NCBI GenBank assembly: GCA_017555805.1
Contig: JAFZFR010000005.1
Span: 1 to 35,798, forward strand
Length of the DNA: 35,798 bases
Source: Alistipes sp.
GTDB taxonomy: Bacteria; Bacteroidota; Bacteroidia; Bacteroidales; Rikenellaceae
Direction of reading: 5' to 3'
Of this stretch, positions 17,506 to 19,680 are shown piece by piece (within the stretch, counting starts at the first letter, position 1; every line of letters begins with the position of its first letter). The notes below the pieces were generated by a model. It was not told the DNA's origin. It did no database searches and saw nothing but the letters and a program-made list of their open reading frames with translations. Both the position numbers and the translations under genes were made by a program.

Positions 17506-18000
17506 TTATTTCATAGCGTCATTGATGGTTAAGACTAATTTATTGCCAGCGAAGTCTTTTACGAGGATGGAGGGCTGATTGAGGGTGCGGGAGAGGTGGT
17601 TGGCGAGGCGGAGGAGGGAGCGGGTGGAGAGGTTGTGGAGTTCGATTGTGATGGAGGTGGAGTCGTAGATGGCGCCGTTGGGGTTGACATAGCGACCGCG
17701 GAAGGCGTTGCCGAGGGTGTGGGTGGGAGATTTGCAGGTTGCGAGGTGGTGGGTTATGGCACCGCAATCTATCGACAGAATGTTTGAGGGAAATACAATT
17801 ACGCCGACGCGAGAGTTTGCGCTGTGGGATGCGGGTGAGAGTGTGAAATTGCGAGCATTGTCGGCGCAGGATTTGATAAAGTTACCGCGCTGGAAGCCTA
17901 CGCCATTAGGCATATCGCGACCATCGGGTGAGAAATATTTTACCTCACGAAAGTGGCGGCGAGGGAGGTGTTTAATAATTTTTGCAAATAGGTTCTTCAT
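17506..18000 (-). CDS. conserved-looking hypothetical protein
   Basis: A 164-residue soluble protein with no signal peptide or membrane segment and no recognised catalytic motif. The first 20 residues are basic. The C-terminal half alternates like a small alpha/beta domain, with a STSITIELHNLS strand, a helical RSLLRLANHLSRTL segment and a QPSILVKDFAGNKLVLTIND strand pair; this is the part that looks most protein-like. It is divergently transcribed from the WYL regulator gene and separated from it by 160 nt, and has a possible -7 box at 18029-18036. The opposite strand is open for much of this length, but that reading frame has no promoter and low-complexity content. Function unknown. Confidence 0.6.
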   Translation of the reverse strand: MKNLFAKIIKHLPRRHFREVKYFSPDGRDMPNGVGFQRGNFIKSCADNARNFTLSPASHSANSRVGVIVFPSNILSIDCGAITHHLATCKSPTHTLGNAFRGRYVNPNGAIYDSTSITIELHNLSTRSLLRLANHLSRTLNQPSILVKDFAGNKLVLTINDAMK

Positions 18001-18028: not shown

Positions 18029-18036
18029 CAAAACTA
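18029..18036 (-). promoter_or_regulatory. possible -7 box for the hypothetical gene
   Basis: Minus-strand TAGTTTTG, a TAnnTTTG match, 28 nt before the ATG at 18000. No TTTG box sits at the usual distance upstream. Confidence 0.4.
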
Positions 18037-18103
18037 CCCTGCTCTTGCGCCAGAATGTTGCAGAGGGGAAATAATTTGCGGTTTCTGGGAAAGTTTTTCG
18101 GGT

Positions 18104-18139
18104 TGTGCCACAAATTGGCACATATACTTATTATCTTTG
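18104..18139 (+). promoter_or_regulatory. palindromic element plus -7 box of the WYL gene
   Basis: A 7-bp perfect inverted repeat, TGTGCCA-CAAAT-TGGCACA (18104-18122), occupies the place where the TTTG box would normally sit. After the 17-nt shared core (18104-18120) come 11 nt and then TATCTTTG (18132-18139). The ATG at 18161 is 21 nt further on. The same core with the same 11-nt spacing is found before the next gene (18953-18988). It is probably a regulator-binding site overlapping the promoter, with the adjacent WYL protein as the obvious candidate ligand. Confidence 0.7.
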
Positions 18140-18160
18140 TGGAAGAAAATAAGATTTATT

Positions 18161-18880
18161 ATGGCAGGAAACCTTTATCAACGATATGTGTGGTTGTTGG
18201 AGACCGTGAAGAGTTACAACGGAATCACCTTTGAGCAAATCGACCAGGCGTGGCAACGATCCTATCTGAATAACGATGGTGCACCACTTCCAAAACGCAC
18301 CCTACACAACCATATTGAGGCTATCAATGATATGTTTAATATGCGCATCAGGTGCAACCGACAAGGCGGATACAAATACTACATCGAGAGCGTTGATGGC
18401 GGCAAATTATCCAAGACACAAAAGGCCTTGCTGGGGCATCTGCAATTAAGCAACACTCTGTTGGACAGCAGGGTAAATCGCTATATTGAGCTCGCCGAGT
18501 GCCCTATTTATGAATTGATTCATCCGCTCGCAGATGCTATAAATCGCAAGCTGTATGTGACATTTTCGTGGACGCACCACGCCTATGGAGCACAAAGGAT
18601 TAAGATGGCGCCATACTATCTGAAGCAGTATGCAAGCGTGGGCAACAACTGGTATTTGTTGGGTGCTCTACCGAGCGGAGAGGATGTCATCTATGAGTTA
18701 AAAAACATCTCTGATGTGGTAATCAGCGACAAGACATTCATTCACCCTGAGTTATCTTACAAGGAGTATTACGACTCTATCGACCACAACAGACCCGCAA
18801 AAGAGACCGACGACTCTTTGGGTCTTCACTTCGACCACATTGCCGAAAGTGGCGAGCTGGATGAGTGGGTGGAGCGGTGA
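18161..18880 (+). CDS. WYL-domain transcriptional regulator (short form)
   Basis: A 239-residue predicted DNA-binding protein. Residues 1-75 look like a winged helix-turn-helix (YQRYVWLLETVKSYNGITFE, then PLPKRTLHNHIEAIN as the recognition region, then a GGYKYYIE wing). Residues about 115-190 are a WYL domain, with APYYLKQY and NNWYLLGALP as the signature strands. WYL domains are thought to bind nucleotides or nucleic acid, and such proteins often regulate defence or DNA-damage genes. The start is fixed by the promoter at 18104-18139; the longer open frame starting at 17708 runs antisense to another gene. It is about 60-80 residues shorter than many WYL regulators and ends in an acidic tail instead of a full WCX domain. 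Confidence 0.83.
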   Translation: MAGNLYQRYVWLLETVKSYNGITFEQIDQAWQRSYLNNDGAPLPKRTLHNHIEAINDMFNMRIRCNRQGGYKYYIESVDGGKLSKTQKALLGHLQLSNTLLDSRVNRYIELAECPIYELIHPLADAINRKLYVTFSWTHHAYGAQRIKMAPYYLKQYASVGNNWYLLGALPSGEDVIYELKNISDVVISDKTFIHPELSYKEYYDSIDHNRPAKETDDSLGLHFDHIAESGELDEWVER

Positions 18881-18943
18881 TTTGGCGCTACAATTGCCCG
18901 ACCACGATTAAAAAATAGCACATTTTAAAATAGTATTCACAAG

Positions 18944-18988
18944 CCCCTTCTCTGTGCCACGATTTGGCAGAGAAGGGGTTTAACTTTG
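18944..18988 (+). promoter_or_regulatory. second copy of the palindromic element plus -7 box
   Basis: The 17-nt core TGTGCCAC-GAT-TTGGCA (18953-18969) matches the site before the WYL gene at 15 of 17 positions, and is again followed by exactly 11 nt and a -7 box, TAACTTTG (18981-18988). Here the core is enclosed in a longer imperfect dyad, CCCCTTCTC (18944-18952) against GAGAAGGGG (18970-18978). The ATG at 19006 lies 17 nt downstream. This strongly suggests co-regulation with the WYL gene. Confidence 0.7.
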
Positions 18989-19005: not shown

Positions 19006-19680
19006 ATGGGAAAGAGGAATACTATTAAAATGAGAGATGTTCGCTTCAACAAAGAACTATTCTCCAACTATCACACAGGCACGGTGATGGACAAACTACT
19101 ATGCAGTTACCAAGGTCTGCCAAAGGGCGTGAACTATATGATTATCGGCGACCCAGGCGTAGGCAAGACAACCGTCATACTTGATATGCTGGCTAACTTC
19201 CAGCAGAAGCACCCCGCGGCACGAATACTATTCATTAGCGCCGAGATGAACGAGATTGACCTTGCGATATATGTGCAGCGCTTCCCGAAGTTCGGCGAGC
19301 TGGAGATACTCTTTGTGGAGAACAACCCCGACGAGGAGTCGCATAATTGGCAGACCATGACAGAGACGCTCAACGAGGTGAAGATGGCGAACAAATTGCT
19401 CACAAGTCTCGGCGTTGAGGAGGTCGAGGCAGAGGAGATTGTGCCCTACGCCCAACTCATAGACCGATACACGGCGGCAGGTTACGATATGAAGCATACC
19501 CCGCTTGCACAATGTCGCAGCCACATCAATATGTGGGAACTCCTCAACCGCATCACCTACTTTGCCTCACACAACCCAATATGGAGCACCGAGGACAACC
19601 GCCGCTCGGCCCTGATGACCGAAAGCAGCAAACTCCTCATCCGCCCCCGCGACATCAAGCGGTATATCGATGTGGGGTGA
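19006..19680 (+). CDS. short RecA-fold P-loop ATPase (RadA/KaiC-like N-terminal part)
   Basis: A 224-residue protein whose first 105 residues look like the start of a RadA/DnaB-type RecA domain: a lead-in helix, then YMIIGDPGVGKTT with Walker A at 48-55, then the second core strand ILFISAEMNEIDLAIYVQR and a third strand LEILFVENNP. After that the expected Walker B strand and the sensor/QxTK-like region of related ATPases are not recognisable. The tail (about 115-224) is mostly helical and charged and ends LLIRPRDIKRYIDVG. Either the protein is a truncated or chimeric ATPase, or it is a divergent family. It has its own promoter with the same palindrome as the WYL gene and is followed by a hairpin. 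Exact function unknown. Confidence 0.7.
   Translation: MGKRNTIKMRDVRFNKELFSNYHTGTVMDKLLCSYQGLPKGVNYMIIGDPGVGKTTVILDMLANFQQKHPAARILFISAEMNEIDLAIYVQRFPKFGELEILFVENNPDEESHNWQTMTETLNEVKMANKLLTSLGVEEVEAEEIVPYAQLIDRYTAAGYDMKHTPLAQCRSHINMWELLNRITYFASHNPIWSTEDNRRSALMTESSKLLIRPRDIKRYIDVG

Follow-up and report, generated by a model that had tools for sequence, protein, structure and literature searches.

Palindromes at a fixed distance from the -7 box are predicted operators of a WYL regulator in an Alistipes genome

In a 35,798-nt stretch of Alistipes sp. DNA (contig JAFZFR010000005.1; hereafter the window), the gene for a WYL-domain protein and the gene that follows it each carry a nearly identical palindrome at the same distance from the -7 box. 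We propose that both palindromes are probably operators of the WYL protein encoded between them, which would most likely act as an activator at a promoter that has no -33 box. Very probably, the palindrome serves as the operator of the WYL protein itself, because the fixed offset recurs in front of related WYL genes and because the half-sites covary with the recognition helix of the protein; this reading is tempered by a second gene set, which supports the fixed offset weakly. WYL regulators are common, and few of them have known operators. Among the open-access papers listed in a survey of titles and opening lines of abstracts, none described an operator for a WYL regulator of Bacteroidota. 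The kind of regulator is thus known; a locked operator on sigma-ABfr promoters, with half-sites specific to each clade, is new as a prediction.

Results

Two matching palindromes precede the WYL gene and its neighbour

The arrangement described in the initial annotation was confirmed by direct reading and by pattern scans. The two 17-nt sites, TGTGCCACAAATTGGCA (18104-18120, forward strand, upstream of the WYL gene) and TGTGCCACGATTTGGCA, differ at 2 of 17 positions (15/17 identical), and each is followed by an 11-nt gap and then by a -7 box of the form TAnnTTTG (Table 1). Site 1 belongs to a slightly longer palindrome, TGTGCCA-N5-TGGCACA, centred 19 nt upstream of the TA in the -7 box of the WYL gene, and site 2 retains the core TGCCA-N5-TGGCA. 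With up to 3 mismatches allowed, the composite pattern matched twice in the window and not once in 100 shuffles of it. Across the whole genome (2.0 Mb in 114 contigs, 83% complete) the core occurred at five places, and core plus -7 box at these two only. Two of the remaining three core matches lay within long frames, and the third lay outside the listed frames with no -7 box behind it.

Table 1. Positions of the genes, predicted operators and -7 boxes in the window
Feature	Position	Strand	Basis
Possible weaker third operator, TGCAACATTCTGGCG, 11 nt, TAGTTTTG	18029..18065	-	Looser scan and reading; doubtful, dyad symmetry poor
Predicted operator 1, TGTGCCA-CAAAT-TGGCACA	18104..18122	+	Direct reading, pattern scans, position and covariation tests
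-7 box of WYL promoter, TATCTTTG	18132..18139	+	Direct reading, pattern scan
WYL regulator gene, 239 aa, winged HTH and WYL domain	18161..18880	+	Pfam, AlphaFold model, PDB profile and structure matches
Predicted operator 2, TGTGCCACGATTTGGCA, ahead of neighbour gene	18953..18969	+	Direct reading, pattern scans
-7 box of neighbour-gene promoter, TAACTTTG	18981..18988	+	Direct reading, pattern scan
Neighbour gene, 224 aa, in-frame fusion	19006..19680	+	Two separate matches in one relative

The doubtful third site sits in front of a divergent orphan gene (17506-18000, 164 aa), for which we found no convincing family match and no relative among the collected loci. Operator 2 is nested in a longer G+C-rich inverted repeat (window 18944-18978, CCCCTTCTC...GAGAAGGGG), and the 61 nt around it, treated as single-stranded DNA, gave a predicted fold of -14.7 kcal/mol (z = -4.28 relative to shuffles).

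The regulator is a short WYL protein with an altered ligand groove

The assignment of the first gene to the WYL-type DNA-binding proteins was borne out. The AlphaFold model (pLDDT 86) has a winged HTH followed by a WYL (Sm-fold) domain, and the Pfam WYL score of 19.7 bits falls slightly below the cut-off of 21.8. Among PDB profiles the family matched PafBC best (E = 3.5e-16), followed by DriD over its full chain (2e-12), CapW (4e-4) and BrxR (0.11). Structure searches with the model returned PafBC, DriD, BrxR and CapW, with DriD as the top match for the WYL part.

The C-terminal WCX domain is absent from the window protein, whose 239-aa chain stops shortly past the WYL domain; many relatives (~300 aa) extend further at this end. 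In the scheme of the PafBC paper, where class A has the WCX domain, it would belong to class B (HTH and WYL alone). In the ligand groove, a conserved and positively charged region to which ssDNA binds in PafBC/DriD-like regulators, the consensus of the relatives (43 rows) reads RWY...RIYALDRI, compared to NWY...VIYELKNI in the window protein, from which the groove arginines of the consensus are missing. Because both the WCX domain and these arginines are missing, sensing of ssDNA in the manner of DriD appears doubtful for the window protein, and its signal may differ or have been lost, since the groove departs from the relatives' consensus.

The palindrome recurs 19 nt upstream of the -7 box of WYL genes

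We scored palindromes with a 5-nt spacer at offsets of -35 to -5 from the gene-proximal -7 box in two sets of WYL genes. The first set held 85 distinct Bacteroidales genes gathered mainly through protein similarity, 64 of them with a TAnnTTTG box; it was not fully blind, as a few genes (at least G101, G233 and G180) came from stretches fetched with the motif, and near-identical copies were kept. Matching pairs in this set averaged 3.5 of 6 at a centre of -19, and the mean did not exceed 2.0 at any other offset. Five or more of the 6 pairs were found in 23 genes at -19, in 5 at -18, in 4 at -20 and in no more than 2 at any other offset tried (n = 64). The second set comprised 67 genes from 80 loci, after 13 repeats of the first set had been left out, and 48 of these genes had a box. 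Here, too, the mean was highest at -19, but the peak was weak (2.38 of 6 pairs, followed by 2.23 at -11.5). Five or more of the 6 pairs matched in 3 genes at -19, in 3 at -20, in 2 at -18 and in 0 to 2 at every other reported offset. Many genes of the second set have the outer arms alone (TGTG...CACA), which our scoring misses.

Taking both sets together, 67 of 138 distinct WYL genes had at least 4 of 6 pairs at -18 to -20, compared to 102 of 1070 other ORFs. When box-bearing genes alone were counted, the numbers were 67 of 102 and 102 of 337 (p = 3e-10), a conservative comparison given that the control ORFs came largely from WYL or motif stretches and hence include operators. A TAnnTTTG box was missing within 150 nt of the assumed start in 36 of the 138 WYL genes, and 35 of the 102 box-bearing ones fell below 4 of 6 pairs. 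The control ORFs with a box (n = 337) themselves reached at least 5 of 6 pairs in 30 cases at -19 and in 2 to 11 cases at other whole-number offsets, and 20 of those 30 lie on contigs with a strict motif match (defined below), so that their presence is partly by construction. The other 10 are in loci L153, L205, L232, L253, L254, L270, L277, L286, L292 and L303, with unrelated sequence in L270 and L277.

The left half-site takes the place of the -33 box

The -7 consensus of the phylum and its less certain -33 motif have been described (PMC7366714). As the initial annotation had noted, the element stands where a TTTG box would be: the left half-site of the operator covers the place of the -33 TTTG. 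TTTG was found at TA-24/-23 in 46 of 245 control promoters and in 3 of 67 WYL promoters (p = 0.004); these 67, which also served for the covariation analysis below, had been selected for at least 4 of 6 pairs. WYL promoters instead have TTTG at TA-18 (a fraction of 0.36 of the 67) and TA-19 (0.12), where it opens the right arm, and the TTTG at TA-18 may have a role of its own.

We favour an activator because of the fixed distance, the rarity of the -33 box and the kinship to PafBC and DriD. The WYL protein might instead be a repressor similar to BrxR or CapW that covers the -33 region, silences its own gene and the neighbouring ones, and is released upon ligand binding. BrxR is described as a repressor that binds inverted repeats, and inverted repeats are reported to lie often within 200 bp upstream of its homologues. 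Both CapW and BrxR also matched the window model in structure searches, and the operator overlaps the promoter core, over which autoregulated repressors likewise place their operators. A repressor would, however, need no single exact spacing, yet in all WYL clades the centre stays within 1 nt of -19. Instead of being preserved beneath the operator, the -33 box is rare, and by sequence the family is nearer to PafBC and DriD than to CapW and BrxR, as the E values above indicate. We therefore consider repression less likely, although it is the alternative to be taken most seriously, and retain activation as the preferred reading.

Half-sites covary with the recognition helix

Operator similarity and recognition-helix similarity were correlated over all pairs of the 67 genes (r = 0.41, 0 of 2000 permutations), and also over protein pairs with less than 45% identity (r = 0.30, 0 of 2000 permutations). 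The adjacent DNA, used as a control, gave r = 0.12 and 0.05, respectively, and two other parts of the protein gave 0.34 and 0.39 for all pairs and 0.19 and 0.20 for pairs below 45% identity. The half-sites vary by WYL clade while the offset stays constant. Helix RTLHNHI goes with TGCCA or GCGCCA, RTFHRHK with CTGCCA, RTFHQHREA with TATGCAA, RTLQRDF with CGACA and RTFTRYKDH with CAGACA. The second WYL gene of the window genome (contig 111) has a different operator, CTGTCG...TGGCAG, and its AAA ATPase neighbour carries a similar one, CTGACA...TGGCAG. Operators of neighbouring genes modestly matched the WYL operator of their own locus (0.693 vs 0.641; 244 of 10,000 permutations; 11 loci), in a comparison that omitted the window, where the frame caller had picked an upstream start, and retained spurious palindromes in L055 and L201.

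Two side observations concern operators of this kind. In L015 (contig 11 of G020), a second palindrome, TGCGCCAAATCTTGGCG, with a -7-like box lies directly upstream of the first one of the WYL gene. In L159 (1-1371), the gene divergent from the WYL gene looks on visual inspection like one for a DNA polymerase III alpha-like PHP protein, and its operator TATGCAA/TTGCATA resembles that of the WYL gene.

The strict motif is associated with WYL genes across the genus

For genome-wide counts we used the strict motif TGCCA-N5-TGGCA-N10-12-TAnnTTTG, with the reversed pattern as a control. It matched 27 times in 17 of 180 genomes of the genus, where the reversed pattern did not match at all. Across the order there were 16 matches (the two of the window included) in 12 of 393 genomes, and because the reversed pattern matched 4 times there, single matches at this level may be due to chance. 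Among the 41 distinct strict copies in the collected stretches, 36 were followed within 160 nt by an ATG frame of at least 50 codons.

These counts bear on whether the two sites of the window could be a coincidence, or the product of a recent duplication of a promoter segment, with no shared control. The presence of just two copies in the genome would fit either origin. Against these origins stand the empty shuffle scan, the differing flanks of the two 17-mers, the genus-wide excess over the reversed pattern and the placement of most strict copies ahead of a reading frame, as well as the recurrent offset and the covariation with the recognition helix. On the shuffle scan and the genus-wide counts we rejected both, and we regard them as extremely improbable.

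A WYL gene (profile E ≤ 1e-12) was present in 14 of the 17 genus genomes with the motif and in 46 of the 163 without it (Fisher p = 2e-5). Motif-bearing genomes with no WYL gene, which the initial annotation had raised as evidence against the link, numbered three at this threshold, all of them incomplete assemblies (92, 86 and 73%), a mixed outcome for that check. Within the stretches around a strict motif, 16 of 30 held a WYL gene, where ~0.5% would be expected per 20 kb (an estimate from 93 WYL matches in the genus, with genomes taken to average 2.05 Mb). The other 14 stretches showed no WYL gene, and some of them are on short contigs or run to a contig end. The strict copy stood only at the WYL gene's own promoter in 4 of the 16 WYL-holding stretches (L132, L134, L148 and L150), and in the other 12 a copy was carried by another gene.

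The 14 stretches with no WYL gene in them would be expected if some other regulator, such as a LexA-like S24 repressor, owned the palindrome and WYL genes were merely among its targets. Bacteroidetes LexA is reported to use palindromes with a 5-nt spacer, CTAA-N5-TTAG or GGA-N5-TCC, some of them diverged. Against such an owner, the half-sites covary with the WYL recognition helix beyond the neighbouring DNA, they differ among WYL clades at an unchanged offset, and two WYL genes of one genome have different operators. The published LexA motifs also differ from the TGCCA/TGGCA half-site. The gene between the two sites codes for a WYL protein and not for an S24 peptidase. We judged LexA ownership unlikely, and ownership by any other regulator has little probability left. 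The shared offset (weak in the second set), the covariation and the co-occurrence in genomes together uphold the proposed tie between the element and the WYL protein.

We confirmed 139 relatives of the short WYL family and analysed the best 80 of them; by their record titles these came from Bacteroidota, nearly all from Bacteroidales, with one exception. The exception, the WYL relative in L238, comes from an assembly filed under Candidatus Merdenecus (Lachnospiraceae), where it sits on a contig of 4.6 kb that is either stray or the result of a transfer. A search of viral contigs gave no relative of the short WYL family, and the notion of the motif as a phage marker was dropped as unsupported.

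The neighbour gene is a remnant of an ATPase locus

The second gene had been annotated as a RecA-fold ATPase under the control of the WYL protein. The first part of this assignment holds for about the first 120 residues: residues 5-124 align with the first half of a RecA-like ATPase, at 74% identity to the one in G023, with Walker A at residues 48-55. The homology stops at about residue 124, ahead of the GWDIVAIDS stretch of the longer ATPase relatives, which we take to be Walker B. The remainder, residues 120-223 (~104 aa), is a 47% match to the C-terminal part of the protein that is encoded next in relatives. Longer ATPase frames with the missing region were found in G063, G023 and G458, the last running past the end of the collected locus. 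Since the two matches are disjoint and fall on two adjacent genes, we rejected the plain reading as a working RecA-fold ATPase. Control of an ATPase by the WYL protein is thus not supported as worded for the window, where the neighbour is a deletion fusion devoid of the Walker B region; it fits the ancestral arrangement.

No match to the chimeric protein was found in the genome contig database. The name DUF932-like was dropped for the partner protein, as Pfam has nothing for it. In the same-genus relative G458 (L160) the gene order is WYL, PLD-like protein, ATPase; the window has no PLD-like gene between the two and may have lost it as well. From these sequence comparisons, and barring an assembly error, we read the neighbour gene as a remnant of a larger locus.

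At 5 of 6 RecA-like ATPase loci, with the window and both of the near-identical relatives L160 and L048 counted, a -7-like box is preceded at exactly -19 by an operator-like site. Apart from the window, which has 5 of 6 pairs, these dyads are weak (3 or 4 of 6), and one of the boxes is TTTCTTTG. The sixth locus, L249, has 4 pairs at -20 and a sequence unlike the others, and was left uncounted. In G023 the left arm ACATAAGC of the ATPase locus is also found in the WYL operator of that genome. Control of the neighbour by the WYL protein is supported because 4 of the 5 other ATPase loci have an operator-like site at -19.

Other genes carrying the operator and the neighbourhoods of WYL genes

Strict copies stand ahead of a ~560-aa AAA ATPase in several genomes (L052, L053, L135, L136, L140 and others); further carriers are a small protein family, a DnaB-like protein and uncharacterised proteins. 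In L056 an operator precedes a series of genes, the third of which encodes an ATP-dependent DNA ligase, and five operator-like sites occur in this one locus. A single palindrome between two divergent promoters, at the fixed distance to each, was found in L055 and L137. In G003 an AAA ATPase gene with an operator lies 48 kb from a WYL gene, and the two operators have the left arm CTCTGCCA in common.

Among 124 non-redundant loci (100 with a WYL gene), most of them chosen through the WYL gene so that the counts reflect neighbourhood and not enrichment, the recurrent families were AAA ATPase (29), 3'-5' exonuclease (28), metallophosphoesterase (13), RtcB (13), GmrSD (12) and PDDEXK_4 nuclease (7). 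GmrSD and PDDEXK_4 proteins are encoded close to some WYL genes. In 21 of 28 cases no more than 40 nt separate the exonuclease gene from the WYL frame, so the two may share an operon. In the exonuclease and RtcB clusters checked for an operator of their own (at least 5 of 6 pairs) none was seen. Genomes of the Bacteroides and Prevotella type (L256, L257, L264 and others) repeatedly contain RtcB RNA ligase genes and WYL-adjoining 3'-5' exonuclease genes.

PADLOC, run on 10 chosen proteins, returned a weak WYL match and partial ATPase matches (IetA best, with mad8 weak for the RecA-like ATPase), and no complete defence system among these 10. The WYL protein at L055 6897-8219 has a C-terminal part that by eye resembles a UPF0227-type hydrolase (HGLASGA motif), which is separately encoded elsewhere.

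Discussion

In the proposed mechanism, the WYL protein would bind both sites, probably as a dimer with one half-site for each recognition helix. Binding at operator 1 would provide autoregulation of the WYL gene, and operator 2 would place the neighbour under the same control. The dyad would be locked 19 nt upstream of the TA in a sigma-ABfr -7 box, with its left arm in place of the -33 TTTG. Such a promoter would be weak alone, and the WYL dimer in its induced state would help the polymerase there, in a manner similar to DriD, PafBC or SiwR. We infer the binding, the dimer, activation over repression, and nucleic-acid damage or attack as the signal.

Autoregulation together with control of the neighbour remains the simplest reading, as had been suggested, whereas the description as a small module does not always apply, L056 with its five sites being larger. 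The interpretation offered in the initial annotation is thus supported in part. In the window, the target reads as a degraded remnant of a RecA-like ATPase locus, so that, autoregulation aside, little more than a vestige of the circuit may be left.

Related bacteria show this arrangement again, with the protein and its switch changing in step, which suggests a little-studied stress or defence control system. We consider it possible, if somewhat short of likely, that the one-component WYL regulators of Bacteroidota form a large and diversifying family whose members take the place of the -33 box. Every paralogue would have its own palindrome locked to the -7 box and would switch on dispersed, locus-specific repair or defence genes (AAA ATPases, a DNA ligase operon, RecA- and DnaB-like ATPases, the 3'-5' exonucleases that follow WYL genes, and perhaps RtcB). 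This would amount to a phylum-specific damage response beside LexA that can be read from sequence through operator-helix covariation. The fixed offset and the covariation point to such a damage or defence response, and would make operators and regulons predictable for many WYL genes of gut bacteria that await characterisation. It also becomes testable whether WYL proteins can rescue the unusual -7/-33 promoters of the phylum.

Among known systems, DriD of Caulobacter crescentus is a WYL activator with sites at a single distance from the -10 element and poor -35 elements. As described (PMC12340889), it shares with the present case a winged HTH and WYL architecture, a pseudo-palindromic site and a bidirectional promoter; it was second to PafBC in PDB profile matches and first in structure for the WYL part. 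In contrast to DriD, the promoters here are of the sigma-ABfr type, the window protein has no WCX domain and has altered groove residues, the operators diversify by clade, several paralogues occur per genus, and activation is predicted and a response to ssDNA doubtful.

The actinobacterial regulators PafBC and SiwR are also WYL proteins and are described as acting at the -26 region. The reported site of SiwR, an imperfect palindrome of 19 bp, lies between -35 and -10, and SiwR is described as an activator of adjacent genes. PafBC, the best PDB profile match, is described as working by sigma adaptation, as a heterodimer with a non-palindromic motif in which the WCX domain joins PafB to PafC. 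This heterodimer and motif set PafBC apart from our case, and promoters and targets are other than those of PafBC and SiwR.

BrxR and CapW, WYL repressors of phage-defence islands, have the same overall fold, and published accounts give many BrxR homologues upstream inverted repeats and an island context with nucleases. They differ in a weaker sequence match and in being repressors, and the available portions of the reports give no exact spacing rule.

Bacteroidetes LexA is similar in its 5-nt-spacer palindromes, in binding its own promoter and in the divergence of motifs between paralogues, as described in published work. LexA differs in having an S24 peptidase, another HTH and other half-sites, and it has no relation to WYL proteins.
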